From: Cryobacterium sp. MP_M3 | GTDB lineage: Bacteria > Actinomycetota > Actinomycetes > Actinomycetales > Microbacteriaceae | NCBI RefSeq assembly: GCF_015752155.1 | Contig: NZ_JADOVI010000011.1 | Span: 1 to 64,000 of the forward strand | DNA length: 64,000 bases | Direction of reading: 5' to 3' | In this document: positions 15,189-30,830 of the stretch, piece after piece | Numbering within the stretch: the stretch's first letter is position 1 | How the letters are laid out: the number at the start of each line of letters is the position of its first letter | Made by a program: the position numbers and the translations under genes | Notes under the pieces: model-generated | What the model saw: the letters and a program-made list of their open reading frames with translations, nothing else | Told to the model about the DNA's origin: nothing | Databases searched by the model: none

Positions 15189-16598
15189 ATGTCGGCCCAG
15201 CCGGACGCCTTCGATGAGGCACTGCAACGGGCGCGAGCGCACACCATGGAGTGGCTCGCGTCCGTTCCGTCCCGCCCGGTGGGCCCGTCCATGAATGCCG
15301 ACGACTTGCGTGCCGGATTCGCCGCGCCGCTGCCGGAGCAGCCCACCGATCCGGCCGAGGTGATCGATGAACTCGCGCGCCTGGCCGAACCCGGCCTGAT
15401 GGCGATGCCCTCCGGCCGCTTCTTCGGTTGGGTGATCGGGGGAACGCTCCCGGCGGCCCTCGCGGCCGACTGGCTGGTCAGCGCCTGGGACCAGAACGCG
15501 GGCATGCGGTTCGCCAGCCCCGCCGTCGCCGCGGCGGAGGAGGCCGCCGCCGGGTGGCTGCTCGACCTGCTGCACCTGCCGCCGGGTGCCGACGTGGGCT
15601 TCACCACGGGCGGGACCACCGCCAACTTCGTCGGCGTCGCCGCGGGCCGGCAGGCCGTGCTCGACCGGGCCGGCTGGGACCTCGCCGGGCTCGGTCTCTT
15701 CGGGGCGCCGCGCATCCGGGTGTTCGCTGGCGCGGAGCGGCACGACGTCATCGACCTGGTGCTGCGCTACCTCGGCCTCGGCGCGCCCATCCTCGTCGAC
15801 GCCGACGGCCAGGGCCGCATCCGGCCGGACGCCCTGGCCGCCGCCATGGACGCCGGCGCAGACCCGGCCGGCCCGGCCATCGTCTGCCTGCAGGCCGGCA
15901 ACCTGCACTCCGGCGCCTTCGACCCGATGCAGGAGGCGATCGCCGTGGCACACGAGCGCGGGGCCTGGGTGCACGTCGACGGCGCCTTCGGCCTCTGGGC
16001 GGCGGCCAGCCCGCGCTACCGGGAGGCCCTGGCCGGCCTCGACCTGGCCGACTCCTGGGCGACCGATGGGCACAAGACGCTGAACGTGCCCTATGACTGC
16101 GGGATGGCGATCGTGGCCAGGCCCGACGTCGTGCGGGCGGCCTTCGGCGTGCACACCAGCTATCTCATCACCGACAGCTCCGGCCCGGGCGACCCGTTCG
16201 ACAAGGTGCCCGAACTCTCGCGTCGCGCCCGCGGCGTCACCGTGTGGGCCGCGCTCCGGTCGCTCGGCCGGGCCGGCACCGTCGCCCTCGTGGAGCGGCT
16301 GGTCGACCGGGCGGCCGAGCTCGCCACGGGGATCGCCCGCATCCCGGGCGCCGAGGTGCTGAACGACGTGGTGTTCACGCAGGTCAGCGTCAGCTTCGGC
16401 GACGACGAACGCACCCGCCGGGTCACCGCGGCGCTGCTCGCCGGCGGGGTCGCCTGGATGTCCGGGTCGCGCTGGCACGGCCGGGTCGTGCTGCGCATCT
16501 CGGTGAGCAACTGGTCAACGGATGCCGGCGACGTCGCTCTCTCCCTCGCCGCCCTGGAACAGGCGGTCGCCTCGGTTGACGAGATAGAATTGTCCTGA
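15189..16598 (+). CDS. pyridoxal-phosphate group II amino acid decarboxylase
   Basis: A 469-residue PLP enzyme of the aromatic-amino-acid/glutamate decarboxylase group. The cofactor Lys is in DSWATDGHKTLNVPYDCG at about residue 297. Other family marks are GGTLPAALAADWLVSAWDQN, GFTTGGTTANF (phosphate site) and WVHVDGAFGLWAA (Asp that pairs with the pyridine nitrogen). Related actinobacterial proteins are called aspartate, tyrosine or aromatic decarboxylases without proof, so the substrate is left open. ATG 15189 follows a divergent promoter shared with the MFS gene. It is the last gene before the cresol-type catabolic block. Confidence 0.85.
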   Translation: MSAQPDAFDEALQRARAHTMEWLASVPSRPVGPSMNADDLRAGFAAPLPEQPTDPAEVIDELARLAEPGLMAMPSGRFFGWVIGGTLPAALAADWLVSAWDQNAGMRFASPAVAAAEEAAAGWLLDLLHLPPGADVGFTTGGTTANFVGVAAGRQAVLDRAGWDLAGLGLFGAPRIRVFAGAERHDVIDLVLRYLGLGAPILVDADGQGRIRPDALAAAMDAGADPAGPAIVCLQAGNLHSGAFDPMQEAIAVAHERGAWVHVDGAFGLWAAASPRYREALAGLDLADSWATDGHKTLNVPYDCGMAIVARPDVVRAAFGVHTSYLITDSSGPGDPFDKVPELSRRARGVTVWAALRSLGRAGTVALVERLVDRAAELATGIARIPGAEVLNDVVFTQVSVSFGDDERTRRVTAALLAGGVAWMSGSRWHGRVVLRISVSNWSTDAGDVALSLAALEQAVASVDEIELS

Positions 16599-16619: not shown

Positions 16620-16655
16620 GTGGTTCCATCGACGCTCCGATGTGTGGGGAACCAC
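16620..16655. promoter_or_regulatory. inverted repeat upstream of iclR
   Basis: GTGGTTCC (16620-16627) is mirrored by GGAACCAC (16648-16655). It is 22 bp before the GTG start of the IclR gene and shares the GTTCCA half-site with the element at 17548. An autoregulatory site is inferred. Confidence 0.45.
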
Positions 16656-16677
16656 CGAGGGCAGTCAAAGGGGCATC

Positions 16678-17484
16678 GTGGCAGGTCGGACATCGGCTCC
16701 GGGGCAGTCGGTCACCGGGCGCGTGCTGAGCATCCTCGCCGTCTTCGAGCTCAGCCCCTCGGCAAGGTCGCTCTCGGAGATCGCAGCCGAGAGCGGGCTG
16801 CCGCAGAGCACGGCTCACCGGCTGCTCGGCGAGCTCGAGGCGTGGGGTGCGGTGCAGCGGGATGCCCGGGGCCGCTACCAGATCGGCCTCCGGCTCTGGG
16901 AGCTGGGCCAGCACGCCGGGAGGCAGCTGCGCGACGTGGTGCGGCCGTTCCTGCAGGACCTCTTCGGCCTCACCCAGGAGACCGCCCACTTCGCCATCCG
17001 GGACGGCGCCGACGTGCTCTACATCGACCGGGTCTACGGCACCCGGAGGGTGCCGCAGGCGTCCAGGGTGGGCGGGCGGCTCCCCATGCACGCCACCGCC
17101 GTCGGTCGGGCCATCCTCGCCTTCGAGGACGGCTGGGTGCGCGACGCCGTTCTCGCCGGCACGCTGGTCAAGCGCACGGCCTTCACCAAGACCGACCCCG
17201 ACCAGCTCCGCCGCGAACTCGAGAAGATCCGCGGCCAGGGGTTCGCGCTGGCCTCCGAGGAGGTGCGGCTGGGCTCGTGCTCCCTGGCGGTCCCCGTGTT
17301 CCAGGCCGACGGCCACATCTTCGGCGGCCTGGGGATCGTGCTGCCGATCACCCGGGCTCACCAGCTCGAGCGCAACCTGCCGATACTGCTCGGCACCGCG
17401 CAGCGGATCCAGGACGGGATCGCCCACCTCCCTCCGTCGGCGCTCCGACCGGCCGCGCGGGCGCGCACGCAACCGCAACCCTGA
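16678..17484 (+). CDS. IclR family transcriptional regulator of the cresol-type operon
   Basis: A 268-residue regulator with an N-terminal winged helix (residues ~12-70; VLSILAVFELSPSARSLSEI then GLPQSTAHRLLGELEAW) and a C-terminal IclR effector domain (DVLYIDRVYG, then LPMHATAVGRAILAF). GTG 16678 is chosen because AAAGGGG stands just before it; an ATG 12 codons upstream lacks such a site. The gene lies 100 bp upstream of the P450 operon on the same strand. In aromatic degradation, IclR proteins usually respond to a pathway substrate. It is the likely counterpart of CreR in the Corynebacterium glutamicum pathway by position, not by proven homology. Confidence 0.9.
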   Translation: MAGRTSAPGQSVTGRVLSILAVFELSPSARSLSEIAAESGLPQSTAHRLLGELEAWGAVQRDARGRYQIGLRLWELGQHAGRQLRDVVRPFLQDLFGLTQETAHFAIRDGADVLYIDRVYGTRRVPQASRVGGRLPMHATAVGRAILAFEDGWVRDAVLAGTLVKRTAFTKTDPDQLRRELEKIRGQGFALASEEVRLGSCSLAVPVFQADGHIFGGLGIVLPITRAHQLERNLPILLGTAQRIQDGIAHLPPSALRPAARARTQPQP

Positions 17485-17547
17485 TTCAATTCCATCCAGT
17501 GGGACGGTCCGAGGGCTTCTCAGGATCGGCGGCATTAGATGGACGCA

Positions 17548-17567
17548 GTTCCACGATGTTGTGGACC
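17548..17567. promoter_or_regulatory. candidate IclR operator before the P450 operon
   Basis: GTTCCAC (17548-17554) and GTGGACC (17561-17567) form a near-perfect inverted repeat 18 bp before the P450 start codon, directly after a possible -10 element TTAGAT at 17535. The placement would allow the regulator to block transcription. The ribosome site AAGGAG follows. Confidence 0.5.
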
Positions 17568-17584
17568 AGACCAAGGAGCATCAC

Positions 17585-18928
17585 GTGAACGCTCAGACAG
17601 ATTCGTCAACGGCCCCCGCCGAAGCGGCATCCGCCACGGTCGTGCCGGCTGCATCGGCAGGCCAGTGCCCGGTCGACCACCGCTCGATGTCCAGCGTGGC
17701 CCCGGCCGACCACCACGGCTACGAACCGTTCAACATGAACGACCCGTTCCCGGCCTACGCCGAACTCCGTGCCGACCAGCCGGTTATGTTCGACGAGCGG
17801 ATCGGCTACTACGTCGTCAGCCGTTACGACGACGTCAAGGCCGTCTTCGACGACTGGCAGACCTTCAGCAGTGAGAACGCGCAGGCCCCGGTGCGGAAGA
17901 GGAGCGCCGCGGCCGTCACGATCATGAACGACGGCGGTTTCACCGCCTACTCCGGGCTGTCCGCGCGCATCCCGCCGGAGCACACCCGCATGCGCACGAT
18001 CGTGCAGAAGGAGTTCACCCCGCGTCGGTACAAGGCGCTGGAGCCGACGATCCGCGAGAACACCACCCGGCTGCTGCGGCAGATGCTGGCCCACCCGGAT
18101 GCGACCGGCGACTTCCTCACCGACGTCGCGGTCGACATCCCCACCATCACCATCCTCGGCCTGCTCGGCGTCGGCCCGGAGATGGTGCCCACCTACAAGA
18201 AGTGGTCGGACTCCCGTGCCGCGATGACCTGGGGCGACCTCAGCGACGAGGAGCAGATCCCGCACGCGCACAACCTGGTCGATTACTGGAACGAATGCCT
18301 GCGCCTGGTCTCCGAAGCCCACGCCAACGGCGGCGACAACCTCGTCGCCGACCTGGTCAAGGCGCAGGATGCCGGCGCCGAGATCTCCGACCATGAGATC
18401 GCGTCGGTCTGCTACAGCTTGCTCTTCGCCGGCCACGAGACCACCACCACGCTGATCTCCAACACCATCCGGGTGCTGCTCAGCCACCCCGACCAGTGGC
18501 AGGCGCTCGTCGCCGACCCCAGCCGCATCCCGGCCGCGATCGACGAGACCCTGCGGTACAGCCCGTCGATCGTCGGCTGGCGCCGCAAGGCGCTGAAGGA
18601 CACCGAGATCGCCGGCACACCGATTCCGAAGGGCGCGGACATCCTGCTCTTGATGGGCGCGGCCAACCGCGACCCCGGTGTCTTCGAGGAGCCGGAGGTG
18701 TTCGACCTGAGCCGGGAGAACGCCCGCACCCACCTGTCATTCGGCTTCGGCATCCACTACTGCCTCGGCAACATGCTCGCCAAGATGCAGGACAAGATCG
18801 TGCTCGAGGAAACCCTCAAGGCGGTCCCGAACCTGCGCATCGTCAACCCGGAGGCAATCACCTTCGGCGAAAACCTGTCGTTCAGGGCGCCGACGTCGGT
18901 GCCCGTCACCTGGGAGGTCCCGTCATGA
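17585..18928 (+). CDS. creJ: cytochrome P450 (CreJ-like aryl-phosphate oxidase)
   Basis: A 447-residue bacterial class I P450. Visible marks: oxygen-activation helix I LLFAGHETTTTLI, the ExxR pair in DETLRYSP, and the heme loop FGFGIHYCLG with Cys near residue 393. GTG 17585 is set by AAGGAG upstream. In the C. glutamicum cre pathway, P450 CreJ with its ferredoxin and reductase oxidises the methyl group of 4-methylphenyl phosphate through alcohol and aldehyde to acid. The neighbours here are the same set of functions, which is the ground for the name. The N-terminus is Ala-rich and probably disordered. It overlaps the next gene by four bases (ATGA). Confidence 0.85.
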   Translation: MNAQTDSSTAPAEAASATVVPAASAGQCPVDHRSMSSVAPADHHGYEPFNMNDPFPAYAELRADQPVMFDERIGYYVVSRYDDVKAVFDDWQTFSSENAQAPVRKRSAAAVTIMNDGGFTAYSGLSARIPPEHTRMRTIVQKEFTPRRYKALEPTIRENTTRLLRQMLAHPDATGDFLTDVAVDIPTITILGLLGVGPEMVPTYKKWSDSRAAMTWGDLSDEEQIPHAHNLVDYWNECLRLVSEAHANGGDNLVADLVKAQDAGAEISDHEIASVCYSLLFAGHETTTTLISNTIRVLLSHPDQWQALVADPSRIPAAIDETLRYSPSIVGWRRKALKDTEIAGTPIPKGADILLLMGAANRDPGVFEEPEVFDLSRENARTHLSFGFGIHYCLGNMLAKMQDKIVLEETLKAVPNLRIVNPEAITFGENLSFRAPTSVPVTWEVPS

Positions 18929-20004
18929 CCCACGCACCCTTCATCCAATTCTTCGACGACGACGCCGCCCCCCGGCACGAGCTCCTCGGCGGCAAGTGCG
19001 CGTCCCTCGTCGCCCTGACGGCCGCGGGAATGCCGGTGCCTCCCGGGTTCGCCATCACCACCGCCGCCTACGACGCCTTCATCCGCGAGGCCGGCATCGA
19101 GGCCGACATCCACGCGCTGCTGGCCGGCCTCGACCCGAACGACATCGCCGAGGTCGACCGCGTCTCGGCCCAGCTCCGGTCGGAGATCACCTCCCGCCCG
19201 GTGCCCGCCGAACTGCACGCCATCACGATCGACGCCTACAACGCGCTCCAGGCCAGGTTCGCCTCCCCGGTCCCGGTGGCAGTGCGCTCCTCCGCCACGG
19301 CCGAGGACCTGCCGGATGCCAGCTTCGCCGGCCAGCAGGACACCTACCTGTGGCTGACCGGCGTCAAGGACGTCACCGAGCACATCCGGGCCTGCTGGGC
19401 GTCGCTCTACACCTCCCGCGCCATCATCTACCGGCTGAAGAACAACATCCCCAATGAGGGACTCTCGATGGCTGTCGCGGTGCAGAAGATGGTGAACGCC
19501 CGGGTCGCCGGGGTCGCGATCACGATGGACCCCCACAACGGCGACCGGTCGAAGATCGTGATGGAGGCGGCGTACGGCCTCGGCGAACTCGTGGTCTCCG
19601 GCCAGGTCACCCCCGACAACATCACGGTCGACAAGGTCATGCTGATGGTCGTCAAGCACACGATCGGCGACAAGCACGCCGAGCTGGTGCCCGACCTCGA
19701 GAGCAAGTCGCTCGTCGAACTCGAGGTCTCCGAGGAGCGGCGCAGCCGGCTCTGCATCAGTGACACCGAGATCACCGCCATCGCCACGATCGCCAAGAAG
19801 GCCGAGAAGCACTTCAAGTGCCCGCAGGACATCGAGTGGGCGCTGGACCGCGACCTGCCGGACGGGGAGAACCTGCTGCTGCTGCAGTCCCGCCCCGAGA
19901 CCGTGTTCTCGTCGACGGCAACGGGCTCCATCCCGGTCACCTCTGCCGGGTTCGGCATCGAGAGCATCACCAAGTCCCTGATGAGCCAGGCCGGCAAGGC
20001 CTGA
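18925..20004 (+). CDS. phenol/cresol phosphotransferase, ATP-binding subunit (PEP-synthase N-domain)
   Basis: The 359-residue protein is the PEP/pyruvate-binding ATP-grasp half of a PEP synthase standing alone. Family marks are LLGGKCASLVALTAAGMPVP then PGFAITTAAY at the start, VAVRSSATAEDLPDASFAGQ with QDTYL near residue 110-135, and the late ALDRDLPDGENLLLLQSRPE. In phenylphosphate synthase (Thauera) and the CreHI enzyme of C. glutamicum, such a ~40 kDa subunit uses ATP to phosphorylate the catalytic His of a second ~70 kDa subunit, giving AMP and phosphate. That second subunit is the next gene. Which of the letters creH/creI applies I cannot say. ATG 18925 overlaps the P450 stop. Confidence 0.85.
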   Translation: MTHAPFIQFFDDDAAPRHELLGGKCASLVALTAAGMPVPPGFAITTAAYDAFIREAGIEADIHALLAGLDPNDIAEVDRVSAQLRSEITSRPVPAELHAITIDAYNALQARFASPVPVAVRSSATAEDLPDASFAGQQDTYLWLTGVKDVTEHIRACWASLYTSRAIIYRLKNNIPNEGLSMAVAVQKMVNARVAGVAITMDPHNGDRSKIVMEAAYGLGELVVSGQVTPDNITVDKVMLMVVKHTIGDKHAELVPDLESKSLVELEVSEERRSRLCISDTEITAIATIAKKAEKHFKCPQDIEWALDRDLPDGENLLLLQSRPETVFSSTATGSIPVTSAGFGIESITKSLMSQAGKA

Positions 20005-20044
20005 CCCGGCGGGCAGCCGGCCCGTTCGGAACCGGCCGGCATCC

Positions 20045-20076
20045 ACTTCACTTCACTTCACTTCACTTCACTTCAC
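20045..20076 (+). repeat. (ACTTC)6 pentanucleotide array
   Basis: Six full copies of ACTTC plus two bases, in the 105-bp gap between the two phosphotransferase subunit genes. It is the only sizeable gap in the operon apart from the region before the HD gene. Copy-number change by slippage would alter the spacing but not a reading frame. Confidence 0.9.
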
Positions 20077-20109
20077 CCGCACCTTCCCCCACCACAGAAC
20101 GGTTGACCC

Positions 20110-21996
20110 ATGACAGAGAAGTCATTTCCCAGCCCCTACGACCAGACGCCCTCCGCCGCCGCCGAGGGGTGGAAGGATCTCTACGCCTACAACCTGGTCT
20201 TCCAGGACAACCGGCGTGAGGTCGAGGAAGCCAAGTTCTGGTTCTGCGACAGCCAGCACTGGCCCACGGTGACGAAGCCGTTCGAGACCATCGGCTTCGA
20301 ATTCGCGGTCTCCTGCCTCGGCCAGTACAACTCCCGCCACCTGCTGATCCCGCCGGCCAACGGCATCGAGTTCCGCATCCACAACGGCTACGTGTTCATG
20401 TCCCCGGTCGGCGTGCCGGAGGCGGAGATCGCCGCCCGCGTCCCGCAGTTCATGGAACGGGCCGGCCACTACTTCCAGAACTGGGACACCCTGCTCGAAC
20501 AGTGGCAGGGCAAGATCCGCGGCACCATCGACGAACTGGGCGAGCTCTCCTTCGAGGCGTTGCCCGACGCGGTCCCGGTCGAGGACGTGCTCAGCGGCAA
20601 GGGCACCGGCCCCAACAACGAGCTGCTCGGCAACTTCGACAAGCTGATCGCGCTCACCTACCGGGCGTGGCAGTACCACTTCGAGTTCCTCAACCTCGGC
20701 TATGTCGCCTACCTCGACTTCTTCACCTTCTGCAAGGAGGTCTTCCCCGGCATCCCCGACCAGGCTGTCGCGAAGATGGTGCAGGGCGTGGACATGGAAC
20801 TCTTCCGTCCGGACGACGAGCTCAAGAAGCTCGCCAAGCTCGCCGTCGAACTCGGCCTCGCCGACCACTTCGGCGACACCGAGAACCCCGACGCGACGCT
20901 CGCCGGTATCGCGGCTGCGACCGGCGGCGACACCTGGCTGGCAGCCTGGGACGAAGCCAAGGACCCGTGGTTCAACTTCACGGTCGGCAACGGCTTCTAC
21001 GCGCACGACAAGTACTGGATGGACCACCTCGAGCTGCCGCTCGGGTACATCAAGGACTACATCGTGCGGGTGCGGACCGGCCACAACATCGACCGCCCGG
21101 TCGAGGAGCTCGTCGCCGAGCGCGACCGGATCACCGAAGAGTACTCGGAGCTGCTCAGCCCCGAGCAGCTTGCCGCCTTCCAGGGCAAGCTCGGACTGGC
21201 CCGCCAGGTCTACCCTTACGTCGAGAACCACAACTTCTACATCGAGCACTGGACCATGGGCGTGTTCTGGCGCAAGGCCAGGCAGCTCTCGAAGATGCTG
21301 CAGGGCCAGGGCTTCTGGCCGGAGGAGAACGGCATGTTCTACCTGCGCCGTGACGAGGTGCGCGAGGCGCTGTTCGACTACGTCACCGGCTGGGGCGTCG
21401 GCGCCCCCGCCATCGGCCCCGACTACTGGCCGGCCGAGGTCGCCCGCCGCACGGTCATCGTCGACGCGCTGTCGAAGGAGCGCCCGCAGCCGGCCCTCAA
21501 CACGCCGCCCGCCGTGATCACCGAGCCCTTCACCCTCATGCTCTGGGGCATCACGAGCGACCAGATCCGGAACTGGCTGGGCGACTCGGATGCTCCGGAA
21601 GGCGAATTCCGCGGAATGGCCGCCTCCAGCGGCGTCGCCGAGGGACCCGCCCGGGTGATCAGCAGCTCCGACCAGCTCTCCGAGGTGCAGGACGGCGACA
21701 TCCTCGTCGCACCGGTCACCGCGCCGTCCTGGGGGCCGATCTTCGGCAAGATCCGTGCCACCGTCACGGACATCGGCGGCATGATGAGCCACGCGGCCAT
21801 CGTCTGCCGGGAATACGGGATGCCCGCCGTCACCGGTACCGGCACCGCCTCCTCCCAGATCACGACCGGGCAGTGGCTGCGGGTCGACGGCAACAACGGC
21901 ACGGTCACGATCGTGGAAGACCACGATCACGACCTCAGCCTGGCGCCGGCCGCCGCCATCCAGCTCGACACCGCACTGGAAAGCAGCCATGCCTGA
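20110..21996 (+). CDS. phenol/cresol phosphotransferase, phosphohistidine subunit
   Basis: The 628-residue protein has a long substrate-binding region (about residues 1-500) and a C-terminal PEP-utilising swivelling domain. The catalytic His is in IGGMMSHAAIVCREYGMPAV, near residue 561, in the same pattern as PEP synthase, rifampin phosphotransferase and phenylphosphate synthase subunit 1. Size and split match the ~70 kDa partner of the phenylphosphate synthase and CreHI systems. The expected reaction is transfer of phosphate from His to the phenolic hydroxyl of 4-cresol or a related alkylphenol. ATG 20110 has only a weak ribosome site, and the array at 20045 lies just upstream. Its stop overlaps the SDR start by eight bases. 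Confidence 0.86.
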   Translation: MTEKSFPSPYDQTPSAAAEGWKDLYAYNLVFQDNRREVEEAKFWFCDSQHWPTVTKPFETIGFEFAVSCLGQYNSRHLLIPPANGIEFRIHNGYVFMSPVGVPEAEIAARVPQFMERAGHYFQNWDTLLEQWQGKIRGTIDELGELSFEALPDAVPVEDVLSGKGTGPNNELLGNFDKLIALTYRAWQYHFEFLNLGYVAYLDFFTFCKEVFPGIPDQAVAKMVQGVDMELFRPDDELKKLAKLAVELGLADHFGDTENPDATLAGIAAATGGDTWLAAWDEAKDPWFNFTVGNGFYAHDKYWMDHLELPLGYIKDYIVRVRTGHNIDRPVEELVAERDRITEEYSELLSPEQLAAFQGKLGLARQVYPYVENHNFYIEHWTMGVFWRKARQLSKMLQGQGFWPEENGMFYLRRDEVREALFDYVTGWGVGAPAIGPDYWPAEVARRTVIVDALSKERPQPALNTPPAVITEPFTLMLWGITSDQIRNWLGDSDAPEGEFRGMAASSGVAEGPARVISSSDQLSEVQDGDILVAPVTAPSWGPIFGKIRATVTDIGGMMSHAAIVCREYGMPAVTGTGTASSQITTGQWLRVDGNNGTVTIVEDHDHDLSLAPAAAIQLDTALESSHA

Positions 21997-22789
21997 GCCG
22001 CGCACGGCCCCGACCTCCCCCAGAACGGTGCTGATCACCGGCGCCGCCGGCGGTCTGGGCCGTGCCTTCGCCCTGGGCTTCGCGGCCCAGGGCGACCGGG
22101 TGGTCGTCGCTGACGTCAACCTCGACGGCTGCCGGGAGACGGTGTCGCTGATCGAGGCCGTCGGCGGCACGGCCCTGGCCGTCGGCGTCGACGTCACCGC
22201 CCTCGACTCGGCAACCGCGATGGCCGAGGAAGCCGCACGGTGGTCGAGCCTGTCGAAACCCGGCGGCGAACACTGCGGCGACGGGAAGATCGACGTGGTC
22301 ATCAACAACGCCGCGATCTACGCCACCGTCACGCGGGCCCCGTTCACCGAGCTCGACCCCGACGAATGGGACCGGGTGATGGCCGTCAACCTGAAGGGTC
22401 CGTGGCTGGTCACCCGCGCCTGCTCGCCCTACCTGCCCGACGGCGGCAAGGTGATCAACCTCTCCTCGGCCACCGTGATGAGCGGCTCGGCCCAGTGGGC
22501 GCACTACGTGGCGTCGAAGGGCGGGGTGATCGCACTCACCCGGGTGCTCGCCAAAGAGCTCGGCGACCGGAACATCACGGTCAACGCGATCGCACCGGGC
22601 TTCACCCTCACCGAGGCCAGCTATGGGCTGATCGACGGGGCCGAGCAGTACGGAGTGGACCGCGGCGCCCTCAAACGAGCCAGCGAGCCCGAAGACATCG
22701 TCGGAGCGGCGCTCTTCCTGGCCGGCCCCGGCAGTAACTACATCACCGGCCAGACCCTCGTGGTCGACGGCGGCCGGCAGTTCATCTAA
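21989..22789 (+). CDS. SDR family dehydrogenase (probable benzylic alcohol dehydrogenase)
   Basis: A 266-residue short-chain dehydrogenase. NAD(P) motif ITGAAGGLGRAFA at residues ~16-28, DVNLD after beta-2, NNAA near 106, and the catalytic Ser with Tyr-x-x-x-Lys in HYVASKGG. It ends with GQTLVVDGGRQFI as usual for the family. In the pathway it would oxidise the 4-hydroxybenzyl alcohol (or its phosphate) to aldehyde, the role of CreC in C. glutamicum. An oddity is a run of about 14 extra residues before KIDVVINNAA, encoded in part by the dispersed repeat at 22239-22260. It sits on a surface loop, so activity may be kept. Confidence 0.83.
   Translation: MPEPRTAPTSPRTVLITGAAGGLGRAFALGFAAQGDRVVVADVNLDGCRETVSLIEAVGGTALAVGVDVTALDSATAMAEEAARWSSLSKPGGEHCGDGKIDVVINNAAIYATVTRAPFTELDPDEWDRVMAVNLKGPWLVTRACSPYLPDGGKVINLSSATVMSGSAQWAHYVASKGGVIALTRVLAKELGDRNITVNAIAPGFTLTEASYGLIDGAEQYGVDRGALKRASEPEDIVGAALFLAGPGSNYITGQTLVVDGGRQFI
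22239..22260. repeat. dispersed REP-like element inside the SDR gene
   Basis: GGTGGTCGAGCCTGTCGAAACC is the family of short repeats that is common between genes in Microbacteriaceae and relatives (read as GGTTTCGACAGGCTCGACC on the other strand). Here it lies in frame within coding sequence. No second copy was found in this window. Confidence 0.65.
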
Positions 22790-22815
22790 CGAGAACGAAC
22801 AAGGAGACCCGAGCA

Positions 22816-23136
22816 ATGCCAACCGTAACCTACGTCGCCTACGACGGCAGCGAGACCATCGTCAACGGATTCGCGGGCGACTCCGTCATGGAGACCGCGG
22901 TGCGCAACGGCGTCCCCGGCATCGTCGCCGAGTGCGGCGGCAGCCTGTCCTGCGCCACCTGCCACGTCTTCGTCTGCTCCGACAGTGCGGGAGTGTTCCC
23001 GCCGCGGGCCGACCTCGAGGACGACATGCTCGACGGCACGGCCGTCGACCGGGAAGAGAACTCCCGGCTGTCCTGCCAGCTGAAACTGACGGATGACGTG
23101 GCCGTGCACGTGCAGACCCCCGAGACCCAGGTCTGA
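22816..23136 (+). CDS. [2Fe-2S] ferredoxin (P450 redox partner)
   Basis: A 106-residue adrenodoxin/putidaredoxin-type ferredoxin. Three cluster cysteines are in CGGSLSCATC (spacing C-x5-C-x2-C, residues ~40-49) and the fourth in RLSCQL near 85. This subclass passes single electrons from an NAD(P)H ferredoxin reductase to class I P450s. Its position six bases before the reductase gene and downstream of the P450 fits the three-part CreJEF system. A GGAG ribosome site stands before ATG 22816. Base use is like its neighbours. Confidence 0.92.
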   Translation: MPTVTYVAYDGSETIVNGFAGDSVMETAVRNGVPGIVAECGGSLSCATCHVFVCSDSAGVFPPRADLEDDMLDGTAVDREENSRLSCQLKLTDDVAVHVQTPETQV

Positions 23137-23141
23137 GCGAC

Positions 23142-24431
23142 ATGTCCACTCCAGCGCAGCCCCGCACGGGCACCCTCATCGTCGGCAACTGCCAGGCGGG
23201 CGTGCAGATCGCCTCCACCCTGCGTGAGCTCGGCGACACCGGACCCATCACGCTGGTCGGCGAGGAACCGCACGCTCCCTACCAGCGGCCCCCGCTGTCG
23301 AAGGCCTTCCTCAAGGGCGAGGCCACCGCCGACTCCCTGGCCTTCCGCACGCACGACTTCTACCGGGAGCACGACATCGAGCTCGTCACCCGGGAGCGGA
23401 TCGTCACGATCACCCGGGACGAGAGGGGCGGCGTGGCTGTGGCCGAGTCAGGGCGCATCTTCCCGTTCGCCCGACTCGCCCTGGCCACGGGCGCCGTGCC
23501 GCGCACGATCCCCTTCGAGGGTTCAGAGCTGGAGGGCGTCACCTACCTCCGCACCGCCACCGAGGCGACGGTGCTCGAGCAGCAGCTGCACCAGGCGACG
23601 AACGTCGTCGTGGTCGGTGGCGGGTTCATCGGGCTGGAGGTCGCCGCCGGCGCCCGCGCGGCAGGCAAGAACGTGACCGTGCTCGAGGCCGCCCCACGGC
23701 TGATCGGCCGGGCCGTCTGCGAGCAGACCAGCGAGTTCTACCTCCAGGCGCACCGGCGGCGCGGCACCCGGGTGGTGCTGAACGCGAAGGTCGTGCGCTT
23801 CACCGGGGAGCACGACCGGGTCACCGGGGTCGAACTCGGCGACGGAACCGTCGTGCCGGCCGAGGTCGTGCTGATCGGCGTCGGCGTGATCCCGCGCACC
23901 GAACTCGCCGGGCAGCTCGGCCTCGAGGTCGACAACGGCATCGTCGTCGACACCCACGCGCTCGCCTCCGACGGGCTCACCGTGGCGGCCGGCGACTGTG
24001 CGAACATGCCGAACCCGTCGATCGCGGACTTCGGCCAGGGCCGGCTGCGGCTGGAGAGCGTGCAGAACGCCGTCGAGCAGGCCAAGGTGGCCGCGGCCAC
24101 CCTGCTCGGCCAGGTTGCCGAGCACAAGACGGTGCCCTGGTTCTGGTCGGACCAGGCCGACCTGAAACTGCAGATCGCCGGCCTCTCCGGCGGGCACGAC
24201 CAGGTCGTGCTCCGCGGTGACCCGGACTCGGAGAAGTTCTCCCTTCTCTACTATCGGGACGGCATCTTGATCGCCGCCGACTGCGTCAACAGCCCGCTCG
24301 ACTTCATGGCTGTGCGCAACGCCCTGCACAAGGGCCAGTCGATCCCCGCCGCGCTGGCGACCGACACCGCGGTGCCGCTCAAGAAGTCCGTCACCGACGT
24401 TCTCCTTCCCGTTCCTTCCCCGGCCGCGTAG
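23142..24431 (+). CDS. FAD-dependent ferredoxin reductase (P450 redox partner)
   Basis: A 429-residue protein of the putidaredoxin-reductase family. The second nucleotide-binding motif is normal (VVVVGGGFIGLEVAAGARAA, residues ~152-171), as is the FAD segment DGLTVAAGDCANMPN and the opening PYQRPPLSKAFLKGE. The first FAD motif reads IVGNCQAG where most relatives have VGAGQAG, so one Rossmann glycine is replaced by Cys. It would take electrons from NADH to the adjacent ferredoxin and so to the P450. ATG 23142. The C-terminal domain (from ~residue 325) is of full length. Confidence 0.9.
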   Translation: MSTPAQPRTGTLIVGNCQAGVQIASTLRELGDTGPITLVGEEPHAPYQRPPLSKAFLKGEATADSLAFRTHDFYREHDIELVTRERIVTITRDERGGVAVAESGRIFPFARLALATGAVPRTIPFEGSELEGVTYLRTATEATVLEQQLHQATNVVVVGGGFIGLEVAAGARAAGKNVTVLEAAPRLIGRAVCEQTSEFYLQAHRRRGTRVVLNAKVVRFTGEHDRVTGVELGDGTVVPAEVVLIGVGVIPRTELAGQLGLEVDNGIVVDTHALASDGLTVAAGDCANMPNPSIADFGQGRLRLESVQNAVEQAKVAAATLLGQVAEHKTVPWFWSDQADLKLQIAGLSGGHDQVVLRGDPDSEKFSLLYYRDGILIAADCVNSPLDFMAVRNALHKGQSIPAALATDTAVPLKKSVTDVLLPVPSPAA

Positions 24432-24483
24432 GCCCCTTCCCGTGTGCGCCCCGGCGCCGGCCACCCCAGAAAGCGAGATCGCC

Positions 24484-25128
24484 ATGACCCTGCAGACCGA
24501 ACACCCCGTCGACACCTCACCCATCGACGTCGCCGGCGACGCCCCGACCGACCTCGACCCGCTCTGGCGGGCCGTCGAACCGGAGATGCGCACGCGCGGC
24601 AACGACATCCACATCCCGATCTCGTTCGCCTTCGCGGAGCGGCTCTGCGAGGCCTACCCGGAGGCGGACTCCCTCGTCGTGCGGGTGGCCATCCTGCTGC
24701 ACGACACCGGCTGGGCCCGCGTCGACGAGACCAAGATCATTTCCGAAGGGTTCGGCGCGAACTGGCGTCAGGCGCAGATCCGGTTCGAACACGAGATCAA
24801 GGGCTGTGAGATCGCCAGGGAGGTGCTGCCGGGCCTCGGCTACGACGACGCGTTCATCACCCGGGTGACGGACATCATCGACGGCCACGACACCCGCGCG
24901 GAGTCGCACTCGATCGAGGATTCCCTCGTGCGGGACGCCGACCGGCTGTGGCGCTTCAACCCGGCCGGCATCGCCCTCGCCTCCAGCTGGTTCGGCCAGA
25001 CCCCGTCCTTCTACTGCCGGCGCCTCCGCACCGAGATCCTGCCCGAGCTGATCACGGCCGCCGGGCTCGAGATGGCCACGGTCGAACTGGACCGGGCCGA
25101 GGCGCTGCTCAAGGTGGCGGTGCTCTGA
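24484..25128 (+). CDS. creD: HD domain phosphohydrolase (CreD-like)
   Basis: A 214-residue protein with an HD-superfamily metal site: His in RGNDIHIPISFAFAERL, His-Asp in VAILLHDTGWARVD near residue 79, further His in RFEHEIKGCEIA, and a closing Asp in IIDGHDTRAE. HD proteins hydrolyse phosphate esters. In the cre pathway CreD removes the phosphate from the oxidised aryl phosphate, releasing 4-hydroxybenzyl alcohol, aldehyde or acid. Finding it with the phosphotransferase and P450 is the strongest single argument for the pathway. ATG 24484 is preferred to an open frame from 24442, where no good start exists. It overlaps the aldehyde dehydrogenase start by one base (TGATG). Confidence 0.8.
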   Translation: MTLQTEHPVDTSPIDVAGDAPTDLDPLWRAVEPEMRTRGNDIHIPISFAFAERLCEAYPEADSLVVRVAILLHDTGWARVDETKIISEGFGANWRQAQIRFEHEIKGCEIAREVLPGLGYDDAFITRVTDIIDGHDTRAESHSIEDSLVRDADRLWRFNPAGIALASSWFGQTPSFYCRRLRTEILPELITAAGLEMATVELDRAEALLKVAVL

Positions 25129-26600
25129 TGGAGACGGCAGTGGTGACCGTGCCGTACACCCACACCGCCGACCTGTTCATCGACGGCGCCTGGACGCCGG
25201 CCGAGGGCACGGGGAGCACCCCGGTGACCAACCCGGCCACCGAGGAGGTCTGGGGGAGCGTGCCCATCGCATCCGCCGGCGACCTGGACCGGGCGGTCGG
25301 CGCAGCCCGGCGCGCGTTCACCGGCCACGGCTGGCGCGACCTGGCACCCACCGAGCGGGCCGGCCACCTGCTGCGACTGGCTGACGAGGTCGAGAAGCGG
25401 GCCGAGGCGATCTCGCACACCAACACCTGGGAGAACGGATCCCCGGTCGCCGAGACCGCCAGGGCAGCGTCGAACGCGGCCGCCATCTTCCGCTACTTCG
25501 CGTCGCTCGCGTCGCACCTGGAGGCCACCGACATCCGCCCCTTCCCCGACGGCTCCGCCGAGACCGTCGTGCGGCAGGACCCGGTGGGCGTCTGCGCGCT
25601 GATCGCCCCGTGGAACTTCCCGATCAACCTCGTCGTGGCCAAGCTGGCGCCGGCCCTGATGGCCGGCTGCACCGTCGTGATCAAGCCGGCCTCACCGACG
25701 CCGCTCTCCATCCGCCAGATCGCGGATGCCGCCACGGCCGCCGGGATCCCGGCCGGCGTGATCAACGTGGTCACCGGCAACAGTTCCGTGGGCGACGCCC
25801 TCGTACGGCACCCCGGCATCGACAAGGTGGCGTTCACCGGCTCCACCCCGGTGGGGCGCTCGATCGGCGCGGCCTGCGGCGAACTGCTGCGGCCGGTGAC
25901 CCTGGAGCTCGGCGGCAAGTCCTCCGCCCTCGTGCTGCCCGACGTCGACCTGGCCGAGATGCAGAAGGTGCTCATCCGCAGCTGCATGCGCAACACCGGG
26001 CAGACCTGCTACATCTCCACCCGCGTGCTCGCCCCGCGGGAGCGCTATGACGAACTCGTCGACATGGTCACCGCCACGATCAGTGCGGCGCAGCAGGGCG
26101 ACCCGATGGACCCGGCGACCGTGTTCGGGCCCAGCGCCACCGCCGCGCAGCGCGACACCGTGCGCGGCTACATCAGATCGGGGATCGCCGAGGGCGCCCG
26201 GGCCACGACCGGCGGTGACGTTGCCTCCGGGTTCGACCGGGGCTTCTACGTGAAGCCGACGGTCTTCGCCGACGTCACCCCCGGGATGCGGATCGCCAGG
26301 GAGGAGATCTTCGGGCCCGTGCTGTCGATCCTGCGCTACGACACCCTCGACGAGGCGGTGGGGATCGCCAACAACACCGGCTTCGGCCTCGGCGGCACCG
26401 TGTTCGGGGCGGATGTCGACGCGGCGTTCGCGGTGGCCGCGCGCGTGGACACCGGCTCGATCGGGCTCAACTTCTTCGCGTCGAACCATGCCGCGCCGTT
26501 CGCGGGCCGCCACGACTCCGGCCTCGGCGTCGAGTTCGGGTTGGAGGGACTGCACGTCTACCTCAAGCCGCAGTCGGTGCACCGCCGCATCCGTTCGTAG
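25128..26600 (+). CDS. creG: NAD-dependent aldehyde dehydrogenase (CreG-like)
   Basis: A 490-residue aldehyde dehydrogenase of full length. Marks: APWNFPINLVVAKLAPALMAG, the NAD site VAFTGSTPVGRSIG, the catalytic Glu in LELGGKSSALVLPD, and the catalytic Cys in RNTGQTCYISTRVLAP. In this operon it would oxidise 4-hydroxybenzaldehyde (or its phosphate) to 4-hydroxybenzoate, which would then enter the protocatechuate route elsewhere in the genome. It is the last gene of the operon and meets the APC permease gene tail to tail across 35 bp. Confidence 0.88.
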   Translation: METAVVTVPYTHTADLFIDGAWTPAEGTGSTPVTNPATEEVWGSVPIASAGDLDRAVGAARRAFTGHGWRDLAPTERAGHLLRLADEVEKRAEAISHTNTWENGSPVAETARAASNAAAIFRYFASLASHLEATDIRPFPDGSAETVVRQDPVGVCALIAPWNFPINLVVAKLAPALMAGCTVVIKPASPTPLSIRQIADAATAAGIPAGVINVVTGNSSVGDALVRHPGIDKVAFTGSTPVGRSIGAACGELLRPVTLELGGKSSALVLPDVDLAEMQKVLIRSCMRNTGQTCYISTRVLAPRERYDELVDMVTATISAAQQGDPMDPATVFGPSATAAQRDTVRGYIRSGIAEGARATTGGDVASGFDRGFYVKPTVFADVTPGMRIAREEIFGPVLSILRYDTLDEAVGIANNTGFGLGGTVFGADVDAAFAVAARVDTGSIGLNFFASNHAAPFAGRHDSGLGVEFGLEGLHVYLKPQSVHRRIRS

Positions 26601-26635: not shown

Positions 26636-28621
26636 TCAGCCACCGCCGACGTGGATGCCGGGCCGGCGGGCCGGGTCTGACTCGCTCGTGCGCAGGATCT
26701 CGCGCACCACGGGCGCCGTGTCGCCCTGCCCGAGCAGGAGGTAGCGGACGAGGTGGGTGACCGGGTTGCCCTCCGACCACTCGAAGTAGGCGTGCGGCCG
26801 CACGCCGGCGGCGTCGCGGAGCGCCAGCAGGATGGCAGCGATGGCGTTCGGGGCTGCGGGGCTCTTCGCCCGGAGCACCCGGTAGCCGTCGGCCTCGACC
26901 CCGCGCACCTGCAGCCGCTCGCTGAAGCCGGACGGGTCGACGACCTCGATCTCCAGGAACAGGAGGTCGGCCGCACCCGGCACCGGGTTCATCCCGCGCT
27001 GCTCGCGCTCCTTTTCTGCATAGTCGCCGCGGGTGCCGGGCGCCCGCTTGTGCGCGATCAGGTTGAGGGCGCCGTCGTGGTCGAGCGAGTCCCGGATGTA
27101 CCGCCGGGCCGTCTCGTCGAACTCGACCTGCTCCACCCGGAGTTCGGTCGTGCGGGACACCCGCGAGATCAGGGACACGGTGACGATCCCGAGGATGAAG
27201 AAGGCGGAGATGGTGATGCCGTCCGGCTTCTCGATGATGTTCGCGCCGAGCGCGTAGAGCAGCACGAAGGTGAGCACGCCGAACGCGACGCTCGCGCCCC
27301 GTTGCCGCCGCCGCACAGCGGAGATGGTCACCGCGACCGCGCCGGACACCATCATCACCAGGATCCCGGTGGCGTACGCCCCGGCCTGCGCGTTGACGTC
27401 CGCCTTGAAACCGATCGTGATCAGGATGCTGACGCCGGTGTAGACGAGAACGACCGGCCGCACCGCGCGGCTCCATTCGGGGGCCATGCCGTAGGAGGGC
27501 AGGTAGCGCGGGACGATGTTGATCAATCCCGCCATCGCCGACGCCCCGGCGAACCACAGGATCAGGATGCTGCTCACGTCGTAGACCGTGCCGAACACGT
27601 TGCCGACCCGCTCGTGCGCGAGATAGGCGAGGGCACGCCCGCTGGCCGCCCCGCCGTCCTGGAACGCCGCGGCCGGGATCAGCACGGTGGTGACCAGGCT
27701 GCTGGCCAGCAGGTAGACGCTCATGATGACGGCCGCGGCGGTGAGCAGCTTGCGGGTGTTGCGGATGCGGGACGCCAGCCGTTCCTCGGGCGTGCTTCCC
27801 GCGGCCGCGACGAGCGGCATCATGCTGACCCCGGTCTCGAAGCCGGACAGGCCGAGCACGAGCAGGGGGAACGCGATGATCGCCGGGCCGAGGATGTCGC
27901 CGAAACCCGTGCCGCGGGCGGACAGGGCGCCGATCCAGTCGGACAGGACGCGGGGTTCGGTGAAGACGTCGTAGAGGCCGACGCCGATCACGATCCCGTT
28001 GAGAAGCAGGAACAGGGCGACCAGGGGGATCGCGACCGAGACCGCCTCGCTGAAGCCGAGCAGGAAGACCCCGCCGAGGATGAGCAGCAGCACGACCGTG
28101 ATGGTCACGGCATGCCCCTGCAGGAAAGCCGGCGCGAACGGGTTCTCGAGAAGGTGCACCGTGGCATCCGCCGACGAGAGCGTGATCGTGATGATCCAGC
28201 TTGTGGCGACGAAGCCGAGCAGCACGAGCACGAAGACCTTGCCGCGCCAGAACGGCAGGAGTCGCTCCAGCATCGCCACCGAGCCCTGGCCGCGCGGGCT
28301 CTCCTTGGCCACCCGCCGGTACATGGGCAGCATGCCGAGCAGGGTCAGCGCCACGATCAGCAGCGTCGCCAGCGGCGAGAGGGCGCCGGCCGCCAGGGCC
28401 GCGATGCCGGGAAGGTAGGACAGGGTCGAGAAATAGTCGACGCCGGTCAGACACATCACCTTCCACCAGGAGTGGGTGGCCGTGGTCTCCTCGCTGCTCT
28501 CCGGTCCCACCGGCTGAACCCGGTTCTGCAGCAGCCAGCGCGTGAAAGCGCTGGTCGGGGCCGTGGCGCGCGGCGGCCGTGGCACGCTCGCGGGAATCAG
28601 CGGTCCGGCAGGTGGTGTCAT
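26636..28621 (-). CDS. APC superfamily permease
   Basis: A 661-residue membrane protein. About twelve helices fill residues ~60-455 ([20 protein letters not shown] opens the first), and the remaining 200 residues are a soluble C-terminal domain. The overall plan resembles large APC transporters that carry amino acids or potassium (KimA-like), including a conserved [11 protein letters not shown] segment. The substrate is not decided. ATG 28621 with GGGAGAGA upstream is preferred to an earlier start. It is convergent with the catabolic operon and divergent from the hypothetical gene at 28873 across a 250-bp promoter region that shows no gene. Confidence 0.8.
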
Positions 28622-28872
28622 GGTTTCTCTCCCGGTGGCATTTCGGCCTGCGTCGGGCCCGGTGGAACCACGTTGGCAGATCACCATTGTCGACCCGTTC
28701 GCGCCGTTTCGTGGCCATTCGCGGCGCGGTGATCAGCAAACGTCGCCGGGGCGCGCTCGCCGAGCCCCCGGACACGACCATAATCGACGTGTACCCCCTG
28801 GGCAGCCGGCCCACCGGGAGGAGAGGTCCCGAGCCGAGCATCCGCCCGCGCTCGCCGCCGGAAAGTGAATCC

Positions 28873-29452: not shown

Positions 29453-30778
29453 TCAGCGCGCCCCGACCACCATCCAGGCCCCGGTGCGGGCGCGCAGGCC
29501 CAGGGTGACCGCGCGGGCGCCGAGGTAACCGAGGGCGAAGGCGGCCATCAGCCACGCCAACCCGGCAGCCCCGGATGGCGCCCAGACCAGCACGCCGACG
29601 GCCAGCGGAACGAACGCGGCCAGATTCACGACGCCCGTGACGGCCAGGTAGCGCGCGTCGCCCGCCCCGATCAGCACCCCGTCGAGCACGAAGACCACGC
29701 CGCCCAGCGGAACGGACAGCCCGAGCACGACCAGCGTGGCCGGCAACAAGGTGTTCACCTCCGCTGCGTTCGTGAAGAGGCTGCCGAGCACGCCGCTGCC
29801 GGCGATCACGAGCAGCCCGAGCACCGCGCCGCTCAGCACGCCCCACTCCAGGCAGCGTCGCAGCACGGCCCGCACGCCGGCCAGGTCGCCGGCGCCGAGT
29901 CCGCGGCCGACGAGTGCCTGGGCGGCGATGGCCAGGGCGTCCAGCGCGAAAGCGAGGGTGGCGAACAACGTCATCGCGATCTGGAAGGCGGCCAGTTCGG
30001 GCGAGCCGAGGCTGGTCGCCACGAACACGGCGAGCAGCATGGCCGCGCGCAGGCTGACCGTGCGCAGGAAGAGCCAGCCGCCGCTCGACGCCCCGCGTAG
30101 CACGCCCGCGCGGTGCGGCCGCAGCCGCGCCCCCTCGCGGCGGGCGTGGCGCCCCACGACGATGAGGTAGACGGCGACCATTGCCCACTGGGCGACGACG
30201 GTGCCGAGCGCCGAGCCGACGATGCCGAGACCGAGCCCGTAGATGAACCACAGGTTGAGCAGGATGTTGGCGGAGAAGCCGAGCCCGGCCACCAGGAGCG
30301 GGGTGCGGGTGTCCTGCAGCCCGCGGAGCAGACCTGTGGCCGCGAAGACGAGCAGCATGGCCGGGAGTCCGAGCATCGAGAGACCCAGGTAGCCGGCGGC
30401 GGCCTCCGTCACGGCCGGCTCGGCCCCGAAGGCGCCGACCAGCGCGGGGGCGGCGAAGGCGCCGGCCGTCGCCAGCAGCACGCCCAGGCCGAGGGCGAGC
30501 CAGAGGCCGTCGATGCCGACCGAGACCGCCCGCCCGCGGTCGCCCGCTCCGAGCCAGCGGGCCACCGCGGGAGTCGTGCTGTAGGCGAGGAAGACCATCA
30601 GGCCGATGATCGTCTGCAACACCGCGCCGGCCAGTCCGAGCCCGGCCAGGGGCACCGCGCCGAGGTGCCCGACCATGGCCGAATCGGCGAGCAGGAACAG
30701 GGGTTCGGCGATGAGAGCGCCGACGGCGGGAATGGCGAGGCGCAGGATCTCGCGGTCGATGGGCTGCGGGCGGAGGAT
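29453..30778 (-). CDS. MATE family efflux transporter (DinF type)
   Basis: About 441 residues with twelve membrane helices. The opening DREILRLAIPAVGALIAEPL followed by FLLADSAMVGHLG and the repeat in the second half are characteristic of the DinF branch, which exports drugs or organic compounds against Na+ or H+. The start cannot be fixed: no ATG, GTG or TTG lies between the divergent peptidase gene and the first conserved residues. An ATC at 30778 has GGAG seven bases upstream and is used here as the limit. The upstream 69-bp inverted repeat (30831-30899) may have displaced the original start region. Confidence 0.8.
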   Translation of the reverse strand: MLRPQPIDREILRLAIPAVGALIAEPLFLLADSAMVGHLGAVPLAGLGLAGAVLQTIIGLMVFLAYSTTPAVARWLGAGDRGRAVSVGIDGLWLALGLGVLLATAGAFAAPALVGAFGAEPAVTEAAAGYLGLSMLGLPAMLLVFAATGLLRGLQDTRTPLLVAGLGFSANILLNLWFIYGLGLGIVGSALGTVVAQWAMVAVYLIVVGRHARREGARLRPHRAGVLRGASSGGWLFLRTVSLRAAMLLAVFVATSLGSPELAAFQIAMTLFATLAFALDALAIAAQALVGRGLGAGDLAGVRAVLRRCLEWGVLSGAVLGLLVIAGSGVLGSLFTNAAEVNTLLPATLVVLGLSVPLGGVVFVLDGVLIGAGDARYLAVTGVVNLAAFVPLAVGVLVWAPSGAAGLAWLMAAFALGYLGARAVTLGLRARTGAWMVVGAR

Positions 30779-30830
30779 GGCGATGCTCCAGAGTAGCCGC
30801 CGGGCCGCGGCGCGGTCCCCCTCGCCGTCC

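Follow-up and report, generated by a model that had tools for sequence, protein, structure and literature searches.

A cre-type operon for predicted phosphorylation-first 4-alkylphenol catabolism in Cryobacterium sp. MP_M3, with a conserved candidate operator

Catabolism of 4-cresol by the products of creCDEFGHIJ has reportedly been worked out in Corynebacterium glutamicum, in studies by Li in 2014 and Du in 2016 that PMC7764795 cites. In the cre pathway the phenol is phosphorylated before its methyl group is oxidised, and the phosphate is removed before the dehydrogenases complete the oxidation. Here we analyse a stretch of 64,000 nucleotides from Cryobacterium sp. MP_M3 (the window; contig 11 of a 3.94-Mb genome), which carries an iclR gene and eight enzyme genes in one run on the plus strand (16642-26600). 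Two further described systems open with a kinase homologous to that of the window. The hpe cluster hpeHICBAD of Rhodococcus rhodochrous GD02, as portrayed in the accessible portions of PMC9618137 and PMC12167813, likewise begins with a two-part aryl dikinase, but a biotin-dependent carboxylase comes next, whereas the window operon encodes a P450 and dehydrogenases. PpsAB of Thauera, paired with phenylphosphate carboxylase, also has a homologous kinase according to excerpts of PMC12167813, but differs in proceeding by carboxylation.

Comparison of the window with these systems points to the first of them. We put at roughly 90% the probability that the operon is orthologous to cre of C. glutamicum and would encode its phosphorylation-first route for 4-cresol or a 4-alkylphenol. 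The top solved relatives of the window P450 are PDB entries 5xjn and 7ccf (667 bits; 70% identity to 5xjn) and 5gwe (661 bits), which we take to be C. glutamicum CreJ, while the third-ranked relative reaches only 230 bits. The 5xjn sequence was searched across 242 Corynebacterium genomes, 13 of which match at E 1e-100; a 100% match over residues 15-414 was found in genome G499, the source of locus L158 and presumably C. glutamicum ATCC 13032. All eight enzymes of L158 recur in the window in the same order, J-I-H-G-F-E-D-C, and on one strand, with identities of 54-71%, although the two hosts differ in genus and family. The same run, from cg0637 (creC) to cg0645 (creJ), appears in the gene table in the accessible part of PMC7764795. 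Within L158 the sequence upstream of the operon reads N, so that other Corynebacterium genomes served to compare the regulator and the operator; in these, iclR lies upstream of cre as it does in the window. The initial annotation had proposed a cre-type, phosphorylation-first operon outside Corynebacterium, and had named alignment to the C. glutamicum set as the check; the gene-by-gene match to L158 and the position of the kinase in the cre clade (described below) bear it out. The best matches of the P450 and the kinase are thus to cre and not to unrelated pathways.

The open reading frames and Pfam domains are all as expected for such an operon, and agree with the annotated succession of iclR and eight enzyme genes joined by start-stop overlaps. 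The IclR-family regulator (16642-17484, on the plus strand like every gene below; IclR_C 1.9e-35, HTH_IclR 9.7e-14) has its frame start at GTG 16642, with GTG 16678 as an alternative later start. The cytochrome P450 gene creJ (17585-18928; Pfam p450; 71% identity to L158, to which all following percentages refer) begins at GTG 17585, preceded by AAGGAG, and its product carries the heme cysteine within FGFGIHYCLG. This CreJ-type P450 is accompanied by its own [2Fe-2S] ferredoxin, creF (22816-23136; Fer2 2.9e-8; 58%), and ferredoxin reductase, creE (23142-24431; Pyr_redox_2 1.1e-57, Reductase_C 2.5e-31; 54%). Two dehydrogenases lie inside the same operon: creG, a short-chain dehydrogenase/reductase (SDR) alcohol dehydrogenase (21989-22789; adh_short_C2 1.7e-55; 71%), and creC, an aldehyde dehydrogenase (25128-26600; Aldedh 9.1e-151; 63%). 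The HD-domain protein, the putative aryl-phosphate phosphohydrolase creD (24442-25128; HD 1.6e-8; 61%), has a frame that opens at GTG 24442, its likely start being ATG 24484. The overlaps fall between creJ and creI (18925-18928), creH and creG (21989-21996) and creD and creC (25128).

This organisation is widespread. Scanning GTDB genomes with a P450 alignment returned 111 relatives; the comparison used the 80 best loci, which do not include C. glutamicum. Cre loci occur across Cryobacterium, Microbacterium, Arthrobacter, Rhodococcus, Nocardia, Streptomyces, Nocardioides, Georgenia, Corynebacterium and other genera, and 77 of the 80 contain all eight genes in order, the remaining three (L077, L094 and L131) stopping at contig ends. 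One of the complete loci, L135, has an additional HD gene between H and G. In 73/80 an iclR homologue precedes creJ within 6 kb and in the same orientation. Within the genus, six of the 24 congeneric genomes other than the window's own carry a cre locus, with identical order in each. Since the order recurs in 6/6 congeneric and 77/80 actinobacterial loci, it is not a product of chance. The initial annotation had suggested a compactness beyond that of cre. This does not hold: C. glutamicum has the identical order (cg0637-cg0645) in L158 and in the table of PMC7764795, as do the 77 complete loci, and a novel compact arrangement is rejected. The identification is sound: the locus is a complete and unremarkable example of cre, and not a new operon. 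Among the complete loci, that of Cryobacterium breve (L063) has creH and creE matches each in two pieces, as frameshifts or sequencing errors would produce. PMC13101518 was considered as a possible publication on cre from Rhodococcus opacus 1CP and rejected, since its main text contains neither creH nor creJ.

The kinase separates cre from the carboxylating systems. It is encoded, as had been annotated, in two parts of 359 and 628 residues: creI, the ATP-grasp (PPDK_N) subunit (18925-20004; PPDK_N 1.1e-108; 63%), and creH, the phenol-binding and swivel subunit (20110-21996; PEP-utilizers 2.3e-23; 65%). The histidine expected near residue 561 is found in the swivel motif TDIGGMMSH as His561, the predicted phospho-histidine, and is kept in all 77 rows covering the site (three of the 80 loci lack coverage). 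The accessible text of PMC12167813 has the two-part dikinase working through a swivel-domain histidine with the motif T/SXXGGXXXH, and places a serine before that histidine in CreH and PpsA, as in the window. The top NCBIfam model for CreH, NF006150 (1084.6 bits; cut-off 650), is still titled hypothetical protein. A CTTCA tandem repeat (20040-20080) lies in the 105 bp that separate creI from creH. Midpoint-rooted trees, one with 50 rows for CreH and one with 48 for CreI, took 26 of the 80 loci together with L158, L159, L160 and L162, L094 being left out of the CreH tree for too short a match. The branch isolating the cre rows has support values of 100/100 for CreH (30 rows including the window) and 99/99 for CreI (31 rows including the window), and the nearest CreH is that of C. 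cryoconiti (95%). The outgroups, among which long branches were flagged, comprise, among others, an Azoarcus locus in which phenylphosphate carboxylase genes are annotated and a locus on a plasmid of Rhodococcus JS3073 that encodes a biotin carboxylase downstream; the window kinase stands apart from both the Pps-type row and this biotin-carboxylase-linked (Hpe/Xcc-like) row. An alternative in which the window kinase is of the Pps (phenylphosphate synthase) or Hpe (hydroxyphenylethanone) type, its product being carboxylated rather than oxidised, could draw on the similar subunit sizes and on the identity of about 45% among CreH, HpeH and PpsA given in the accessible part of PMC12167813. The placement of the window kinase in the cre clade disagrees with it, and so do the neighbouring genes: no carboxylase was found among the scanned window proteins, nor any Hpe or Pps affiliation of the kinase in the trees. 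We consider this alternative very improbable and reject both pathways for the window. The comparison with Azoarcus KH32C (L164) shows the difference, since its kinase row is 45.7% identical to CreH but ppcBDAG genes adjoin the kinase there and a P450 does not.

How would the cre enzymes act in Cryobacterium? From gene content and orthology we infer that CreHI would use ATP to phosphorylate the hydroxyl group of 4-cresol, or of a close 4-alkylphenol, through phospho-His561. CreJ, receiving electrons from CreE and CreF, would then oxidise the methyl group with the phosphate still attached, and CreD, whose metal-site residues H87, D88 and D167 are kept in 77/77 CreD rows, would take the phosphate off. 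CreG and CreC would oxidise 4-hydroxybenzyl alcohol by way of the aldehyde to 4-hydroxybenzoate, which PobA and PcaHG, encoded on another contig, may carry through protocatechuate to ring cleavage. The accessible portions of PMC12167813, PMC9618137, PMC9549646 and PMC7764795 back this reaction order, and in that of PMC9549646 selective alkylphenol oxidation in Escherichia coli is achieved with CreHI, CreJ and CreD, redox partners of other origin standing in for CreE and CreF. The host genome encodes a PobA-like protein on the other contig, and two PF00775 dioxygenase genes adjoin its gene, one with a PcaH-type N-terminal domain; a domain scan bears out both the PobA-like and the PcaH-like protein. 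4-Hydroxybenzoate therefore has a likely outlet, and we reject a dead-end product in view of these pobA- and pcaHG-like genes. In the analyses made we found no evidence contradicting orthology to cre. Two scores nevertheless weigh on the other side: CreD has no close solved homologue, its best match being 22 bits, and the PobA-like protein reaches 473 bits on TIGR02360, below the curated cut-off of 538.7.

Our best guess for the substrate of the window operon is 4-cresol (p-cresol). The same enzymes and logic might instead serve another 4-substituted phenol, such as 4-ethylphenol or a lignin-derived alkylphenol; the window P450 differs from 5xjn by 30%, and the homologous kinase HpeHI takes several phenols in the account accessible in PMC12167813. 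We think this unlikely, as the window matches the 4-cresol operon gene by gene and the pairing of an alcohol with an aldehyde dehydrogenase suits oxidation of a methyl to a carboxyl group. A single locus offers a further point against it. On the plasmid NZ_CP129900.1 of Rhodococcus ruber Y14, typed as conjugative, a whole cre operon (L162; 85080-104885) adjoins a toluene-4-monooxygenase operon; genes for an IS1380 transposase and a recombinase lie close by. Toluene-4-monooxygenase converts toluene to p-cresol, so that this neighbour fits p-cresol as the cre substrate, and the plasmid pair is possibly a cassette leading from toluene through p-cresol to 4-hydroxybenzoate.

What could control these genes? 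The palindrome TTCCN7GGAA, one mismatch being allowed, is present in 66 of the 72 gaps between iclR and creJ, against a mean of 4.99 and a maximum of 10 in mononucleotide shuffles, and in 0/71 control stretches lying inside the P450 gene. The palindrome was discovered in the same gaps in which it was counted, and ten held-out loci (nine Corynebacterium genomes and the R. ruber plasmid) provide an independent test: it is present in 10/10 (shuffles: mean 1.21, maximum 5) and reads TTCCACTSAGTGGAA in eight of them. A stricter form, TTCCN3CAGTGGAA with at most two mismatches, is found in 59/72 gaps, but also in 7/71 control stretches. The representative in the window is a 15-bp imperfect palindrome, TTCCATCCAGTGGGA, in the iclR-creJ gap (17490-17504, no strand), which we predict to be the IclR operator. 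Taken alone, the window has one palindrome site against 0.46 expected, no better than chance, and TTCCATCCAGTGGGA has two further exact matches elsewhere in the host genome. The IclR protein encoded directly upstream probably controls the operon through this palindrome. The accessible text of PMC7764795, which describes the inducer of cre in C. glutamicum as unknown, reports that deletion of cg3388, another IclR-family gene located elsewhere, raises creF RNA; this counts against the regulatory part of our interpretation, since cre might answer to a second regulator besides the adjacent IclR protein, or to a different one. A cre operator is not named in the accessible portions of the literature checked (PMC7764795, PMC13413800 and PMC13101518), and the conserved palindrome is a small new element of the present work.

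The kinase trees also contain a second group. Eight loci from another class of the same phylum (L048, L049, L050, L051, L055, L056, L057 and L058) encode homologues of creI and creH at 45-57% identity and form the sister group of cre under midpoint rooting, the joint branch having values of 100/99 for CreH and 92/89 for CreI. The window P450 and HD genes have no match in the fetched stretches of these eight loci. The gene order, identical in 8/8, is two catechol 2,3-dioxygenases, a histidine phosphatase, creI, creH and a Rieske oxygenase; genomes G164, G295 and G423, with a like kinase, are outside that count. The Rieske protein has a LigXa_C match in both typed loci (L049 and L051) and is matched at E 1e-80 or better in 14/396 genomes. 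Nearby in one typed locus, L049, are meta-pathway genes resembling those for a hydratase, an aldolase, an acetaldehyde dehydrogenase and a semialdehyde dehydrogenase, the hydratase and semialdehyde dehydrogenase matches falling below model cut-offs. This gene content suggests a route in which phenol or a methoxyphenol would pass through an aryl phosphate to catechol and meta cleavage. No description of the Rieske branch was found in a limited literature search that included the accessible part of PMC9618137, and these loci perhaps represent an undescribed phosphorylation-first aerobic pathway. Tentatively, and with slightly more doubt than belief, we suggest that Actinomycetota have a wider set of aerobic 'phosphate-handle' pathways. 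The window operon would be the branch that uses a P450, and the sister CreHI clade the one in which the kinase goes together with two catechol 2,3-dioxygenases, a histidine phosphatase and a Rieske oxygenase.

The genomic surroundings of the operon were compared across operon-bearing Cryobacterium loci. Among the 13 named ones, an upstream gene of the major facilitator superfamily (MFS) is shared by 9, nucS by 8 and the downstream stretch corresponding to 29453-30787 by 11, and these common outer flanks point to an operon residing at one old site across much of Cryobacterium. The genes immediately adjoining it were considered as parts of the pathway and rejected. The pyridoxal-dependent decarboxylase gene at 15189-16598 is unmatched in the 80 named loci, in 20 further regions compared and, at E 1e-3, in the 13 Cryobacterium loci; the minus-strand gene at 26636-28687, a candidate transporter, is unmatched in the same sets and has no Pfam-A or NCBIfam match. 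Elsewhere, a second HD-domain protein, 32-43% identical to CreD, is encoded within 3 kb upstream of creJ in 36/80 loci (for example L081:8378-8899), on the creJ strand in 31 of the 36, and the paralogue of L094 also has the three conserved CreD residues. Such an extra HD match is absent from the 13 named Cryobacterium loci, and no HD domain was found in the scanned flanking open reading frames of the window.

Many actinobacterial genera share, in one fixed gene order, the operon for the 4-cresol route of Corynebacterium. Its versions in Cryobacterium may provide cold-active forms of the enzymes for alkylphenol oxidation, and the predicted operator makes the regulation of cre testable.

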